The notes below the pieces were generated by a model. The model saw nothing but the letters and a program-made list of their open reading frames with translations. It did not search any database and was not told the DNA's origin. From NCBI GenBank assembly GCA_913056305.1, contig CAJXMR010000019.1, positions 1 through 44,492 of the forward strand: a DNA stretch of 44,492 bases, read 5' to 3'. Source of the stretch: an uncultured Ralstonia sp. GTDB lineage: Bacteria > Pseudomonadota > Gammaproteobacteria > Burkholderiales > Burkholderiaceae. The position numbers and the translations under genes were made by a program. Positions 168 to 24,870 of the stretch are shown here, piece by piece; the first letter of the stretch is position 1; every line of letters begins with the position of its first letter.

Positions 168-2885
168 ATGAAGCGGGTGCTGGCGGCAATATGGGGGAGC
201 CTGGCAATCGTTGCCGCGCATGCAGCCAGTTTCGATTGCGCACAGGCGGAATCCAGGGCGGAAAAGCTCATCTGCGCCAGCCCGAGCCTTTCGGCGCTGG
301 ACGAGAAACTGGCGTCGGCCTTCGGAGCCGCTCGAAGTGCCGCTTCGAAAGACCAACAGCAGCGATTGATCACAGCGCAGCGCCTCTGGATCAAGACCGC
401 ACGTGATCATTGCGCCGATGAAGCTTGCCTGGCAACAGCCTACGCTGCTCGTATCTCGCACCTTGTGTCCGCGCCTGCGCTGCACGCCGGCGAAGCGCCG
501 TTCGTGCAGGCCAACACCCTGGCGAACCACCCCGCGCCGATCGGAAAGGGCTTTCCAGAGTTGATCCGCCCGATCGACGGCGATCTCGTCTATTCGCACT
601 ACGACGACAACGGCAATACAAGAAGCATTGTCCAATTCGACTTTACGAATGGGCACTGGACCAACTTGGTATCTGGGAAGACAGACCCGGCATTGATCGC
701 CCAAGATGCCCGGTACATCGTGCTCCACACACCATATCCCGCATCCTTCCCGATTGAGGTGATCAACCGGAAAACCGGTGCAGTGCTGGGCAAGATACGT
801 CTCGCCAATCCAGTTCTGGGTGCATTCATCCAAGGGAACAGATTGGTGTTGTTTCAGGGGCAGACGGGGGCCTACACCTTTCAACAGGCGGTCGCTATCC
901 TGGCCCTACCCTCACTCAAGCTCATCCAGGAAACCACGGTGCCAGGCTTTCGCCTGATCGGCTCCCGGGGCGACCGCATCTATACAGCTACCTCGGCAAG
1001 CGGCAAGAACGATCTGATGGTCTTCGATCACCAGCTTCGAGAACTCGGGCGCATCCAGATCCCGCCGCCATTGGAAAAGATCAACGCCAACTGCGAACTC
1101 TCCGTGGAGCAAGCCGACAATGACAACGCCGTGCTGACCGCGAATTGCGGCGAGATGCATGTCGTGGACCTGAAGTCGTTTTCCATCGTGCAGAGCATCC
1201 CCAGGTATGCGCACTTCTATTCCATGGCGCTGCATGGCGGACTGATATTCACCACCGCAACTGACAAGTCCACCGGTGCCGATGGTGGCGTCGTCGTTTT
1301 CGACATGGGCACAGGTAAGGAGGTCGCACGTTTGCCAATCTCCGCCTCGACCATCGCCATCAAGGGAGACATCCTGCTGGCTGCGGGCTCGCCGGTTTCC
1401 ACGGGCAACACTGCCAGTTGGCACATGGAGACGTATCGGATCAACGCAGATGCGCTTCGCAATGGCGCATGGCAGGAGGCGAGGGTCGTGCAGCAGTGCC
1501 GGCAGGCCGAGGCGCAATTGGCGGACTCGAAGGATCTGTATGCCGCAATCGGCCTCTGCAAACAAGCTGGTATCGAAGGCTTTGCTCGGGACGCATCCGT
1601 TTCGGCGGCCGTGTTTCCCGCGCTCAGGCAGTACGGGCTCTGGTTGAGCCAGACCTTGGATGAGTGCCCGAACGCGGTGAGGATCCTCGAAAAGGTGCAG
1701 GCTGCAAACCCTGATCCGGATGTGGCACACGCGCTGAATGAGGCGCGCCTCAAGGCGCAAGTCGTCAGTGGCGAGGTTGTGGTGGAGCTCTCCCAAGCCG
1801 AGCGGCAAACCGATTTCGCGCAGGTGCTGGTAAATGGGGAGCCGTTGGCAAACACAACCACCAAGAACCTGGAGTTTGGCGCTTTTCCGGAGCTGTTCCA
1901 TTTCTCTGGTGACCGGCTTTATGTTGGACGCTATGGGTGCCGGACGACCCGTTGCGGTGGCGGCGCAACCATCGGCGTATTCGACCGCAACACGCTCGAC
2001 GAGCTGGCATCCATCCAGATTGCGCCCAACGACGAGGAATACCAGGACGCCATCGGTTCCATCGCTGCAGACGACCGGCACATTTACGCTTCCGTGGGGT
2101 ATCAGTACGAACAGGAAGGGCGGCCAAACTTTTTCGTCGTCGACCGCGCGACGCTCAGGATCACCAAGCGCGCCCAGGCCAAATCCATCGGCCTGCTGCA
2201 CATCGAGCGAGGCAAGCTCATGGCATGCGGCTGCCACTTCACGCAGCAACAAGCTTGCGCTGAACTCGATCCGGACACGCTGAAATCGACGGAGACGCCG
2301 GACAAGGCCTGCGTGCAAAGCGAGCCGGGCAATGAAACCATTGTCACCGTTGATAGGAAGATGGTTTCAGATGCAAAGTTTTTCGCAGCGACCCGAGACT
2401 ACCTGGTTGCGGGCGATGAAGTGAACAGCGACGCAGGGTATGTTTTTTACCCACGTGCCGGCGGGCAACCTCTGCCGCCCGTGCGTGGTTTGGGCGACGC
2501 GCTAGAGTGGCCGGTGTCCGTGGACGGCAATGACATCGTGATCCGACAGGGCACTCTGGGCGGGCAGTTGATCAAGCTCGTCAGCCTCCCGTCTGGTGCC
2601 GTTCAAACGCTCCTCGGCCTGCCGGTGACGCCCTTACGTGTGCCCGTACCCATGCTGCATGAGCAGACCCTCTATGTTGGTTACGGCAGAGATCTGCTGA
2701 TATATGACCTCAGCGCCCGTCGTCTCAACCGCTACATCAAGGACTTCATTCCAGGCGAGTTCAAGAACAACGGATTTGGCCTGGATGCGCACCGCATTAC
2801 TCGGTTGATGATCGACCAGGGCAGGCTGATCGCACTCACCTTCCATGGCGTGAACAGCCAAATCATTCGATTGAGCGATCTCTGA
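168..2885 (+). CDS. secreted LprI-N/DUF1311-like protein with beta-propeller
   Basis: This 905-residue protein starts with a signal peptide (about residues 1-20, cut near AHAAS). Residues 22-100 resemble the lysozyme inhibitor LprI N-terminal (DUF1311) domain: FDCAQAES near the start, LICASPSLSALDEKL, and paired cysteines in HCADEACLATAY. The rest is rich in short beta-strand repeats of the quinoprotein/YVTN propeller kind (VFDHQLRELGRI, VFDMGTGKEVARL, VFDRNTLDELASI, VVDRATLRITK), with several cysteines in CRTTRCGGG and CGCHFTQQQAC. GGGGGAAC just before the ATG is the ribosome site. The protein should be periplasmic. Direct repeats containing the tail of the preceding gene flank it on both sides, so it looks like part of a duplicated or inserted module. 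Function is unknown; a partner or immunity role for the upstream product is only a guess. Confidence 0.8.
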   Translation: MKRVLAAIWGSLAIVAAHAASFDCAQAESRAEKLICASPSLSALDEKLASAFGAARSAASKDQQQRLITAQRLWIKTARDHCADEACLATAYAARISHLVSAPALHAGEAPFVQANTLANHPAPIGKGFPELIRPIDGDLVYSHYDDNGNTRSIVQFDFTNGHWTNLVSGKTDPALIAQDARYIVLHTPYPASFPIEVINRKTGAVLGKIRLANPVLGAFIQGNRLVLFQGQTGAYTFQQAVAILALPSLKLIQETTVPGFRLIGSRGDRIYTATSASGKNDLMVFDHQLRELGRIQIPPPLEKINANCELSVEQADNDNAVLTANCGEMHVVDLKSFSIVQSIPRYAHFYSMALHGGLIFTTATDKSTGADGGVVVFDMGTGKEVARLPISASTIAIKGDILLAAGSPVSTGNTASWHMETYRINADALRNGAWQEARVVQQCRQAEAQLADSKDLYAAIGLCKQAGIEGFARDASVSAAVFPALRQYGLWLSQTLDECPNAVRILEKVQAANPDPDVAHALNEARLKAQVVSGEVVVELSQAERQTDFAQVLVNGEPLANTTTKNLEFGAFPELFHFSGDRLYVGRYGCRTTRCGGGATIGVFDRNTLDELASIQIAPNDEEYQDAIGSIAADDRHIYASVGYQYEQEGRPNFFVVDRATLRITKRAQAKSIGLLHIERGKLMACGCHFTQQQACAELDPDTLKSTETPDKACVQSEPGNETIVTVDRKMVSDAKFFAATRDYLVAGDEVNSDAGYVFYPRAGGQPLPPVRGLGDALEWPVSVDGNDIVIRQGTLGGQLIKLVSLPSGAVQTLLGLPVTPLRVPVPMLHEQTLYVGYGRDLLIYDLSARRLNRYIKDFIPGEFKNNGFGLDAHRITRLMIDQGRLIALTFHGVNSQIIRLSDL

Positions 2886-22393: not shown

Positions 22394-22470
22394 CGATCGC
22401 TGCCCCCACACCGGCCGCACCCGCCGGCCGCGCCCGCTGCCAGCAGCCTTCCGCTGGCTTTGCACTCCCA

Positions 22471-22520
22471 GGGACTGTTCAACGCTGCAACGTGTGCATG
22501 TTGCAGCGTTGAACAGTCCC
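22471..22520. promoter_or_regulatory. perfect 21-bp inverted repeat
   Basis: Arms 22471-22491 (beginning GGGACTGTTCAACG) and 22500-22520 are exact reverse complements around an 8-base loop. No T-run follows on either strand (CAATCTTCG on the plus side), so it is not a standard intrinsic terminator. It lies between alkB and a c-di-GMP riboswitch. It could be an operator, a factor-dependent terminator or mRNA-stabilising hairpin, or a small mobile repeat. Confidence 0.9.
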
Positions 22521-22590
22521 CAATCTTCGTTTGCCAGACGCATGTCGAGCCGTTAGAGTGTTTTGCACTGTGTAGCAAGCAGTGGTTTTC

Positions 22591-22660
22591 AGGCAAAACC
22601 GGAGCGATCCGGTGACGCAAAGCTAGAGGGGCTTCCGCTTTGGAAGTCAGCCAGTTGCCT
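22591..22660 (+). promoter_or_regulatory. class I cyclic di-GMP riboswitch (GEMM-I)
   Basis: The aptamer has the known GEMM-I layout. P1 AGGCAA (22591-22596) pairs with TTGCCT (22655-22660). P2 is CCGGA-GCGA-TCCGG with a GNRA tetraloop, followed by the signature GACGCAAAGC. P3 is built on GGCTTCC/GGAAGTC, and AGCCAGTTGCC closes it. A GCTGCC/GGCGGC hairpin can form just after it and could be the expression platform; it lacks a T-run, so control may be at translation. The ribosome site of the spherulin-4-like gene (CAGGAGG) lies about 55 bases further on. Confidence 0.9.
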
Positions 22661-22729
22661 GCTGCCATCTCGGGTTGGCGGCGGGCCAATTGACAGGCGC
22701 GGACCATCGCGTCGTCAGGAGGCATCACA

Positions 22730-23587
22730 ATGAAAAAAGAGAAATTCACGGGGGGGCTCACGCCCGCATTCGCCGCTGCAGCAGCGGCATCGCTGGCGGC
22801 CGGCGGCCGCGCGGCTTTCGTACGCATCGCGTGTGTGAGCGTTGCGCTTGCGGCCGGCGTACTGGGGGCCGCCCCGCACGCCCGCGCGGAATCGCTGCTC
22901 GTGCCTGCGTACATCTATCCGTCTGACGCCGGCGCGACCCAATGGAACACGCTCGCCTCGACCGCGCGGACGGTGCCCACCACCGTCATCCTCAACCCCA
23001 ACAGCGGCCCGGATACGGCGCAGGACCCGAACTACGTTGCGGCGGTGGCCCAGATTCATGCCGCGGGCGGCAAGGTGATCGGCTATGTGTCGACCTCGTA
23101 TGCGGGCCGGCCGCTGTCGGATGTGGTGCAGGACATCAACACGTACCTGTCGTTCTACAACGTTGACGGCTTCTTCATCGACGAGATGACCGCCGACAGC
23201 GTGACCGCGAACGTCCAGTTCTACCAGTCGGTCTACAACTACATCAAGGGCTTGTCGCCCAACTACACGGTGACGGGCAACCCGGGCACCGACGTGCCCG
23301 AGATCTACGCCAGCCTGCCGGTGGCGGACCAGATCGTGGTGTTCGAGGACAGCGCCCGGAACTACGCCAGCTATGCGCCGCAGGCATGGCAGGCGAACTA
23401 CCCGACCAGCCGCTTCGCGCATATCGTGTATGCCGCGTCGACTACGCAGATGGCGACCTTCGTGCGTGGGGCATCAGCCAAGGGCGCAGCCACCGTGTAC
23501 ATCACCTCCCTGACGCTGCCGGACCCATACGCGGCGCTGCCCAGGTACTGGAGCCTGGAGGTCACGGACGCGGCCGCCGCGAAGTGA
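22730..23587 (+). CDS. secreted spherulin-4 family protein (GH135-like)
   Basis: The 285-residue protein has a long N-terminus with a signal segment (about residues 28-53, ending PHARAES). A spherulin-4 TIM-barrel domain follows: LLVPAYIYPSD, TTVILNPNSGP, GGKVIGYVSTSYAGRPLS and NVDGFFIDEM (Asp151-Glu152 in the likely active site). Characterised spherulin-4 relatives (Sph3, GH135) cleave partly deacetylated N-acetylgalactosamine polymers, and related domains occur in exopolysaccharide synthesis. I infer a hydrolase acting on an extracellular or periplasmic amino-sugar polymer. CAGGAGG precedes the ATG. A c-di-GMP riboswitch in its leader ties it to biofilm control. It is a single gene. Confidence 0.88.
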   Translation: MKKEKFTGGLTPAFAAAAAASLAAGGRAAFVRIACVSVALAAGVLGAAPHARAESLLVPAYIYPSDAGATQWNTLASTARTVPTTVILNPNSGPDTAQDPNYVAAVAQIHAAGGKVIGYVSTSYAGRPLSDVVQDINTYLSFYNVDGFFIDEMTADSVTANVQFYQSVYNYIKGLSPNYTVTGNPGTDVPEIYASLPVADQIVVFEDSARNYASYAPQAWQANYPTSRFAHIVYAASTTQMATFVRGASAKGAATVYITSLTLPDPYAALPRYWSLEVTDAAAAK

Positions 23588-23784
23588 GCGGAGCCCTCCG
23601 CTGACGTTCTCTCCATCGGCCACGCTCCGCTGAGGATGCGGTTGCTGGCGGTGTTGCCTTGATGTCTTGAAGCCGTCGCGGGGCCTGTGCCCCGCGCATG
23701 CTTTATATTCAGGCCACCCCTGCATCCACATCTGCCTCGCCTGCCGCTCTATGCGCGCGGCAAGGCGACAACAAGGAGAACCCC

Positions 23785-24870
23785 GTGGCCGTCACCTCCA
23801 ACAAGCTGCCCCATTGGACGATTGCCGCCCCGTTGCTTGCGTGGGTGGTGCTGGTGGCCGGCACGGTGACCACGCGCCCCGGCTGGCTGATCGCGCTGAT
23901 GGCGGTGGCGCTGGCCGGTGCCGTCTTCGCGGCTGTGCACCATGCCGAGGTGGTGGCGCACAAGGTGGGCGAGCCGTTCGGCACGCTGGTGCTGGCCATC
24001 GCCGTGACCGTCATCGAGGTGGCGCTGATCGTATCGGTCATGCTGTCGTCCGGGCCCGAGAAGGCGGGGCTGGCGCGCGACACCGTGTTTGCCGCGGTCA
24101 TGATCATCTGCAATGGCATCGTCGGCGTGTGCCTGTTCGTGGGCGGCCTGCGCCATCGCGAGCAGGCCTTCCAGGCGCCGGGCGCGAATGCGGCCCTGGC
24201 GGTGCTGGCCGCGCTGGTGACGCTGACCATGGTGCTGCCGAACTACACCAGCTCTGCGCCCGGGCCCGTGTTCACCCCGTCGCAGCTCGGCTTTGCGGGC
24301 GTGACCTCGCTGGTGCTGTATGGCTGCTTCGTGATCGTGCAGACCATCCGCCATCGTGACTACTTCCTGGTCGAGGGCAGCGCCAGTGAGGACGTGCACG
24401 CGCCGCCGCCGCCGGCACGCGTGGCCATCGGCAGCGCCGTGCTGTTGATGGTGTGCCTGGTGGCCGTGGTGGGCTTGGCCAAGGTCCTGTCGCCCTCGGT
24501 GGAAGCGGCGCTGCTGGGCGCCGGCGCGCCGCTGGCGACGGTGGGTATCGTCATCGCCGCACTGGTGCTGCTGCCCGAAGGGCTTGCCGCCCTGCGCGCG
24601 GCCAATGCCGACCGCATCCAGACCAGCCTGAACCTGGCGCTGGGCTCGGCGCTGGCGAGCATCGGGCTGACCATCCCCACCGTGGCAGCAGTCTTCATCT
24701 GGATCGGCCGGCCGCTGGAGCTGGGGCTCGGGTCCAAGGAGACGGTCCTGCTCATCCTGACGCTGATCGTGTCGTCGCTCACGCTCGGCAAGGGCCGCAC
24801 GACCATCCTGCAGGGCGTGGTGCATCTGGCGATCTTCGCGGCGTACCTGTTTCTTTCCGTGGTGCCCTGA
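23785..24870 (+). CDS. chaA: calcium/cation-proton antiporter (ChaA-like)
   Basis: The 361-residue CaCA-superfamily exchanger has about eleven helices and the paired alpha repeats: VTVIEVALIVSVML with GDTVFA-like RDTVFAAVMIICNGIVG in the first half, and LPEGLAALRAANADRIQTSLNLALGSALASIG in the second. It should export Ca2+ or Na+/K+ for protons. AAGGAG lies six bases before a GTG at 23785, which gives the normal N-terminus; an upstream in-frame ATG at 23698 would add 29 non-conserved residues. A strong hairpin ends the gene. Confidence 0.9.
   Translation: MAVTSNKLPHWTIAAPLLAWVVLVAGTVTTRPGWLIALMAVALAGAVFAAVHHAEVVAHKVGEPFGTLVLAIAVTVIEVALIVSVMLSSGPEKAGLARDTVFAAVMIICNGIVGVCLFVGGLRHREQAFQAPGANAALAVLAALVTLTMVLPNYTSSAPGPVFTPSQLGFAGVTSLVLYGCFVIVQTIRHRDYFLVEGSASEDVHAPPPPARVAIGSAVLLMVCLVAVVGLAKVLSPSVEAALLGAGAPLATVGIVIAALVLLPEGLAALRAANADRIQTSLNLALGSALASIGLTIPTVAAVFIWIGRPLELGLGSKETVLLILTLIVSSLTLGKGRTTILQGVVHLAIFAAYLFLSVVP

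Follow-up and report, generated by a model that had tools for sequence, protein, structure and literature searches.

The 44,492-nucleotide stretch of DNA analysed here (hereinafter, the window) harbors a c-di-GMP-I (GEMM-I) aptamer ahead of a Spherulin4 gene, an observation first noted in a sequence-only reading of this DNA and confirmed by the present analysis. The aptamer class and the enzyme family are both known; their conserved combination was not found described. We consider it fairly probable that the riboswitch controls the translation of a secreted GH135-type enzyme cutting the cell's own Pel polysaccharide, which would be switched off at high c-di-GMP. This is the best explanation because of the aptamer itself, the enzyme family, the conserved adjacency of the two, the pel link in relatives, and the conserved hairpins located before the Shine-Dalgarno (SD) sequence.

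The aptamer and the Spherulin4 gene in the window

The features of the unit are the following:

22531-22559, forward strand: sigma-70-like promoter (TTGCCA-N17-TAGAGT, 9 of 12 consensus bases; putative RNA start at about 22566)
22582-22662, forward strand: c-di-GMP-I (GEMM-I) riboswitch aptamer (RF01051 covariance model)
22598-22613, forward strand: P2 stem with a GNRA loop, GCGA (RF01051 alignment, sequence)
22621-22656, forward strand: P3 arm, whose foot AGCU/AGUU pairs 22621-22624 with 22653-22656 (RF01051 alignment)
22657-22686, forward strand: hairpin H1, where the ligand-free fold pairs the ligand-contacting C22658 with G22685
22685-22687, forward strand: GCC at the 3' end of H1, proposed anti-SD strand, pairing with GGC 22721-22723
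22690-22718, forward strand: hairpin H2, immediately upstream of the SD and overlapping part of it (folds, covariation)
22717-22722, forward strand: SD AGGAGG, followed by a conserved C (sequence)
22730-23587, forward strand: gene for a Spherulin4/GH135-like hydrolase of 285 aa (PF12138, Sph3 sequence and fold matches)
23677-23696, forward strand: terminator-like hairpin 3' of the gene, consistent with a single-gene transcript

The search of the whole window with 4227 Rfam families at the gathering cut-off returned a single match, RF01051, at 22582-22662 of the forward strand, with a score of 53 bits (cut-off 35, E 1.1e-7) and over the full length of the model (1-87); the match begins 9 nt before 22591, where the region noted earlier starts, and the covariance model thus bears out the aptamer that had been recognized by its letters. 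The bases contacting c-di-GMP in Vc2/Vc1, i.e., G20, A47, and C92 (Vc2 numbers; PMC4744006), correspond in our own mapping by alignment to G22592, A22619, and C22658, and all three are present. The aptamer had also been called complete, and this holds for the GNRA-capped P2, the core, and the contact bases, but not for P1, which is not clearly present: no clear continuous P1 was seen by eye in the window, nor a conserved one in the 40 leaders compared below, and in the window this helix, which is not part of the Rfam c-di-GMP-I model, can be drawn by eye only as a discontinuous 5-bp alternative (22578-22582 with 22659-22663). One c-di-GMP-I aptamer was detected in the genome of the window, whose assembly is 88% complete.

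The single spherulin-4 gene described right behind the aptamer corresponds to the open reading frame 22730-23587, whose product matches PF12138 (Spherulin4) over residues 56-276 (171 bits, E 3.6e-50) and carries a putative, probable signal peptide at residues 1-53 (by eye). Among the PDB sequences it matches Sph3 (5d6t, E 4e-16), and its predicted structure (mean pLDDT 85) has Sph3 5c5g as the top Foldseek match (E 1e-16, TM 0.72/0.80), with 5d6t also among the best ones and a GH191 galactosaminidase in third place (E 1.3e-5). In an alignment of 22 sequences (A3, the window protein plus those of 21 of the 47 named loci introduced below), D151-E152 are invariant and E206 is nearly so; they are aligned with the FFDE and VVFE motifs of Sph3, whose corresponding residues we take to be the catalytic ones. 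Sph3 is an endo-alpha-1,4-N-acetylgalactosaminidase, for which D166A is named as an inactive variant (PMC8546845), and it prefers fully acetylated stretches (PMC12054363, PMC8546845).

The scan of 22400-23800 disclosed two terminator-like sites, versus a mean of 0.7 in shuffled sequences, and no intrinsic terminator in the leader. A plasmid origin of the unit was considered and rejected: the leader has no match in PLSDB, although the protein has 12, one of which is a 914-kb Caballeronia record.

Conservation of the pair and promoters of the leaders

A lack of conservation of the aptamer ahead of orthologous genes would have refuted the sequence-only reading by its own standard, and such conservation was found. 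Within the genus, 15 of the 16 genomes contain the aptamer, the same 15 contain the Spherulin4 gene, and the remaining one (G010) has neither of them. Among 299 Burkholderiaceae genomes, the aptamer was detected in 29 (under strict filters that lose some weak matches), the gene in 32, and both in 28, and the comparison of their coordinates revealed that the aptamer is directly upstream of the gene in all of these 28. The association has a Fisher p of 5.5e-34, and of 3.6e-18 once the genus is left out (13 genomes with both, 1 with the aptamer alone, 4 with the gene alone, and 265 with neither), values that are not true probabilities because of the kinship among genomes. Some genomes depart from the rule: G122 harbors a second Spherulin4 copy without aptamer, in G115 and G160 the gene lies behind an aptamer that appears decayed by eye and gives no Rfam match up to E 1, G039 and G134 possess lower-scoring Spherulin4 copies with no aptamer match, and G032 has two aptamers and no Spherulin4. 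In this last genome, an aptamer of 65 bits (locus L092, 1501-2900) is located about 260 nt before an ORF with an HD-GYP-like signature (HHE...GYP, by eye), possibly forming a feedback loop on c-di-GMP breakdown.

The window protein was also used to find 47 named loci, 30 of which carry the aptamer (18/20, 12/20, and 0/7 in three batches); these belong to Ralstonia, Paraburkholderia, Caballeronia, Burkholderia sp., and three Oxalobacteraceae-like organisms. The 17 without aptamer (L042, L050, L055, L059, L064-L066, and L068-L077) include Nitrosomonas, Zoogloea, planctomycetes, and Acidovorax. Among 300 genomes of the order, Spherulin4 was found in nine further ones, and none of them shows an aptamer in the loci scanned (E up to 1, about 1.5 kb on each side). 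The window, the 30 named loci, and nine further genomes yielded the 40 distinct paired leaders that were compared: 15 of the Ralstonia lineage (window included), 22 of other Burkholderiaceae, and three Oxalobacteraceae-like. In one of the latter (L061, at about 1265), the position of the ligand-selective G20 appears to be occupied by a C, which might change the choice of ligand. All three Oxalobacteraceae-like loci also contain, near Spherulin4 and on the opposite strand, a match to the Rfam family RF02278 (Betaproteobacteria toxic sRNA), as follows:

L057, 1650-1712, opposite strand: RF02278 match
L061, 91-153, opposite strand: RF02278 match
L063, 1658-1720, opposite strand: RF02278 match

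As for transcription, the sigma-70-like promoter is the sole promoter-like site found in 22400-23800, and visual inspection of the 15 leaders of the Ralstonia lineage shows similar boxes. The stretch of the window from the desaturase gene to this promoter contains a perfect 21-bp inverted repeat with an 8-nt loop (22471-22520), neither arm of which occurs elsewhere in the assembly with up to two mismatches. The Ralstonia lineage also shows a small 5' hairpin lying about 10-35 nt upstream of the core (e.g., L037, L035, and L031), whose two sides change together (UGGGU/ACCCA, UGGGC/GCCCA; by eye).

The other Burkholderiaceae show a different picture. It is known that the sigma-28 consensus is TAAAGTTT-N11-GCCGATAA, with a start mapped 6 bp after the -10 octamer (PMC2859248). 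Visual inspection of the leaders had suggested a motif of this kind, and the scoring used those very leaders, covering 12 bases (TAAA-N14-16-GCCGATAA) within the 75 nt that precede the core of the aptamer: all the 22 non-Ralstonia Burkholderiaceae leaders score at least 9, 17 of them at least 10, and four reach 12, whereas a score of 9 is obtained by chance in 3.4% of 6600 random windows of the same loci and in 5.7% of 4400 upstream regions after shuffling. The 15 leaders of the Ralstonia lineage and the three Oxalobacteraceae-like ones all stay below 9, the best site of the window being 7/12. The match is separated from the GCAA by 8-11 nt in 21 of the 22 leaders, and by analogy with the mapped start the RNA of these 21 would begin about 2-5 nt before the G20-equivalent base of the ligand pocket, leaving almost no 5' strand for P1. 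Transcription in these leaders thus looks FliA-dependent, and sigma-28 is likely the second input of the unit outside Ralstonia. The earlier idea of a link between c-di-GMP and the matrix working without a protein regulator is, therefore, incomplete.

Two of the loci lacking a recognizable aptamer, L050/L101 and L098, seem to be cases of decay, with P3 lost or the core changed; they still keep the sigma-28-like promoter and the downstream hairpin (all by eye), and they represent natural cases for testing the role of the aptamer.

Proposed expression platform and direction of switching

Hairpins H1 and H2 come from the folds of 22582-22745 and 22650-22745 (z of -3.3 and -2.9, respectively, versus dinucleotide shuffles). 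In the alignment of 38 of the 40 leaders (A1, without L079 and L081), GGCC 22684-22687 is invariant, as is G22721 of the SD, with G22722 and C22723 nearly so. The C right after the SD was called by script in 37 of the 40 leaders and is present also in L006, L079, and L081 when the SD is read by eye; before other genes, a C follows AGGAGG in two of five cases, a control too small to be used. Covariation was analysed, together with an RNAalifold consensus, in 17 of the 22 non-Ralstonia Burkholderiaceae leaders (A2, without L041, L043, L067, L079, and L081), where both sides change in four of the nine H1 pairs and in four of the eight H2 pairs; these 8 of 17 pairs (23 cells) compare with 3.8 pairs and 7.2 cells (sd 2.6) in shuffled data. 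In the same leaders, 93.6% of the H1 and H2 cells are paired, versus 84.7% when shuffled and 32-41% when slid. Relatedness among the leaders inflates this covariation signal.

In order to model the bound state, the aptamer was fixed and two bases, the ligand-contacting C included, were barred from pairing, the 5' ends of the folded leaders being assumed. This constrained folding covered 38 of the 40 leaders (L003 and L081 were not parsed; L079 was kept, with its SD wrongly called), and the later runs and shuffles covered 36 (L079 and L006 were also dropped). In the 36 leaders, the mean pairing probability of the GCC at the end of H1 with the GGC of the SD climbs from 0.10 in the free RNA to 0.80 with the aptamer fixed, and the openness of the GGC decreases by more than 0.05 in 31 of them and increases by as much in none. 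The mean fall in GGC openness is 0.225, versus -0.049 (sd 0.024) for shuffled platforms (30 dinucleotide shuffles per platform); for the SD it is 0.031, versus -0.012 (sd 0.016), and in the 20 other Burkholderiaceae 0.088, versus -0.019 (sd 0.026). The openness of the whole SD falls in 18 and rises in two of 38 leaders when a longer 3' end is folded; when the RNA is cut 15 nt from the start codon, it falls in 13 and rises in six of 36 at 37 °C, and falls in 11 and rises in seven of 36 at 28 °C. Its mean value goes from 0.59 to 0.50 in the 20 other Burkholderiaceae leaders, from 0.61 to 0.57 in the three Oxalobacteraceae-like ones, and from 0.20 to 0.26 in the 13 of the Ralstonia lineage; in the window it is unchanged (0.33 and 0.34). 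Constrained folding thus mildly favours a translational OFF switch outside Ralstonia, which may be regarded as the more probable sign there, and in the window itself leaves the OFF sign at about even chances.

The opposite sign deserves consideration, even though we hold it for the less probable one. According to it, c-di-GMP would pull the aptamer's own GCC (22650-22652) off the SD, and the hydrolase would be made together with Pel, trimming or finishing the polymer during its synthesis. This GCC is indeed paired with the GGC of the SD both in the fold ranked best for 22650-22745 and in the consensus that RNAalifold gives for the 17 leaders, an arrangement that would give an ON switch, and the slight increase in mean SD openness upon binding in the Ralstonia lineage points the same way. 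Moreover, Vc1, a GEMM-I riboswitch that precedes the gene for the secreted GbpA, is described as an ON switch (PMC4744006), and secreted Pel is reported to be generated by the hydrolase activity of PelA (PMC9894940). In the ensembles of the full leaders, however, the aptamer-GCC clamp has a mean probability of just 0.06 in the free RNA (0.09 in the window), and it is the opposite clamp that grows when the aptamer is fixed. The decayed leaders, which keep the gene and the promoter, would also be more easily tolerated if the switch represses, although they are two cases only. With little or no variation in the bases of the clamp, covariation is uninformative on this pairing.

Probable Pel substrate and comparison with known systems

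The substrate is suggested by the distribution of the pel genes. Pel is an alpha-1,4-GalNAc polymer that is deacetylated in part (PMC12022489), and pelG (PF16933) is present in all the 28 genomes with the paired unit (in two pieces in G065) versus 116 of the 299 family genomes overall, as well as in the two genomes whose aptamer is decayed. No pelG was detected in G039, in G134, or in the only member of the genus that lacks the unit (G010). Counting Spherulin4 against pelG, 30 genomes have both, two the former alone, 86 the latter alone, and 181 neither (p 8e-12; without the genus 15/2/86/180, p 6e-6).

Eight paired loci are divergent from pelA, one of them (L109, from G266) on the basis of ORF size and pelG position only. 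In L108 (from G208), the genes pelG, pelF, pelE, pelD, pelB, and pelA follow one another on one strand (Pfam confirms pelB, pelD, pelF, and pelG; pelA and pelE are assigned from their location and length), and the aptamer and Spherulin4 diverge from pelA; at the far end of this operon (746-1891, reverse strand), a weak GH114 match (PF03537, E 4e-7) is a candidate second galactosaminidase. A tblastn search with pelA of L108 and L110, limited to some 3 kb or less at either end of the gene, disclosed a divergent pelA in seven of the 47 named loci, all with the aptamer:

L051, L052, L053, L056, L060, L062, and L067: pelA beside Spherulin4, divergent strands (tblastn)

In two of the four Zoogloea loci, which lack the aptamer, pelA is located downstream of Spherulin4 in the same direction (L072 and L073, tblastn); the sequences of the other two (L070 and L071) stop no more than 80 nt from the gene. 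Spherulin4 lies just after pelG in two of the nine other genomes of the order (L128 and L132; pelB, pelF, and pelG by tblastn), and the other seven gave no match to the L108 pel queries within about 10 kb at E 1e-10. Thanks to this co-occurrence and to the adjacency in relatives, Pel is the probable substrate of the enzyme, which renders more specific the earlier proposal of an amino-sugar matrix as its target.

A foreign polymer, e.g., fungal galactosaminogalactan, might instead be the main target of the enzyme behind a real riboswitch, an alternative that we regard as unlikely. The GH135 enzyme that has been characterised comes from a fungus and has galactosaminogalactan as its substrate, and no characterised bacterial one is named in the part of PMC12054363 available to us. 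In the genome of the window, the unit (contig C19) is not beside pel, whose genes pelB, pelD, pelF, and pelG are on contig C68 (where two trimeric autotransporter adhesin genes with YadA domains lie next to the pel operon; L112, 12563-18062). Furthermore, pelG occurs in 86 of the 267 family genomes devoid of Spherulin4, so Pel does not need this protein. Against a foreign target stand the three different arrangements in which the gene adjoins pel and the presence of pelG in every paired genome; the two family genomes with Spherulin4 and without pelG are precisely those whose copies are lower-scoring and have no riboswitch match. A discrepancy with Sph3 concerns acetylation, Pel being partly deacetylated and Sph3, as described in the sources available to us, preferring fully acetylated stretches. 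Finally, it is very improbable that the aptamer acts as a sink for c-di-GMP, or is a relic, without controlling the gene: a c-di-GMP riboswitch RNA has been proposed as a store (the merRNA of Bdellovibrio, PMC3627812) and some copies are decaying, but aptamer, platform hairpins, and SD context are kept together, with the gene just behind, in 40 leaders spanning at least four genera of the family and the Oxalobacteraceae-like loci.

According to the preferred reading, that of translational repression by c-di-GMP, the product would be a secreted endo-alpha-1,4-N-acetylgalactosaminidase of the GH135 type cutting the cell's own Pel. In the ligand-free RNA, H1 would hold C22658 with G22685 and C22686 with G22657, leaving the start region freer; c-di-GMP would take C22658, and the freed GCC 22685-22687 would pair with GGC 22721-22723 at the end of the SD, reducing translation. 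Pel synthesis is c-di-GMP-dependent, its activation being expected through PelD, and PelD of both the genome of the window and G208 carries RALD within its GGDEF part, the RxxD motif being presumably the c-di-GMP site of PelD. High c-di-GMP would thus go along with Pel synthesis and an inactive Pel cutter, and low c-di-GMP with an active cutter and the release of the matrix. In Paraburkholderia, Caballeronia, and their relatives, the sigma-28 promoter would add a second condition, restricting expression to motile cells; in Ralstonia, the window included, the promoter has a sigma-70-like appearance and support for the OFF sign is weaker. More tentatively, the whole might be a conserved gate for cells that are motile and low in c-di-GMP, in which a sigma-28 start at the pocket edge of a P1-less GEMM-I aptamer is combined with a three-base hand-off by the ligand-contacting C (the GCC closing either H1 or the SD) and with a GH135 branch dedicated to Pel.

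The release of cells from Pel is less clear than Pel synthesis, and the unit would place a Pel hydrolase under the direct control of c-di-GMP on its own mRNA; if this reading is true, in several genera the flagellar sigma factor would be an additional control of that hydrolase. With one leader and one enzyme, it would become possible to test both matrix cutting and the transition of cells from biofilm to swimming, and the bacterial side of GH135 would gain a likely substrate and ready candidates.

The sequence-only reading knew of no described pairing of this kind, and in agreement with it no description of a unit of c-di-GMP riboswitch and spherulin was found in the open-access papers searched, a weak absence as most subscription papers are outside this scope. 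Open-access titles and abstract beginnings on c-di-GMP riboswitches with Ralstonia and on GEMM with Burkholderia contained nothing on the unit, nor did those among the matches listed for FliA with riboswitch and for c-di-GMP-I with exopolysaccharide or glycoside hydrolase; the open-access papers pairing spherulin with the Pel polysaccharide, as far as the text available shows, are all on fungi.

Four known systems can be compared with the unit. Vc1 of Vibrio cholerae is similar in that a GEMM-I aptamer lies within the 5' UTR of a single gene, whose secreted product has an amino-sugar polymer as its site of action, with no intrinsic terminator, as in the leader of the window (PMC4744006). It differs since GbpA is another protein, binding chitin and mucin GlcNAc, and since Vc1 is an ON switch with a 225-nt leader in which its authors saw no anti-SD; the parts of PMC4744006 available to us describe no link to pel or sigma-28. 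Cd1 of Clostridioides difficile is likewise a GEMM-I aptamer; no P1 is detectable in it, as no continuous P1 was seen by eye in the present leaders, and its location ahead of flagellar genes connects it to motility, but it is an OFF switch working by transcription termination (PMC9262584), whereas the leader of the window has no terminator found and its platform covers the SD. On the protein side, Sph3 (GH135) of Aspergillus resembles the product of the unit in its Spherulin4 domain, as the best sequence and fold match, and in the conserved acidic residues; it is fungal and belongs to a galactosaminogalactan cluster, unlike the bacterial protein, which is encoded behind a riboswitch and is pel-linked in relatives. 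The hydrolase domain of PelA (GH166) of Pseudomonas aeruginosa cuts alpha-1,4-GalNAc polymers of the Pel system, as the proposed enzyme would do, but it is part of a pel operon protein, whereas the enzyme described here is a separate protein of another family, whose gene has a distinct pelA as its neighbour in those adjacent loci that were examined.
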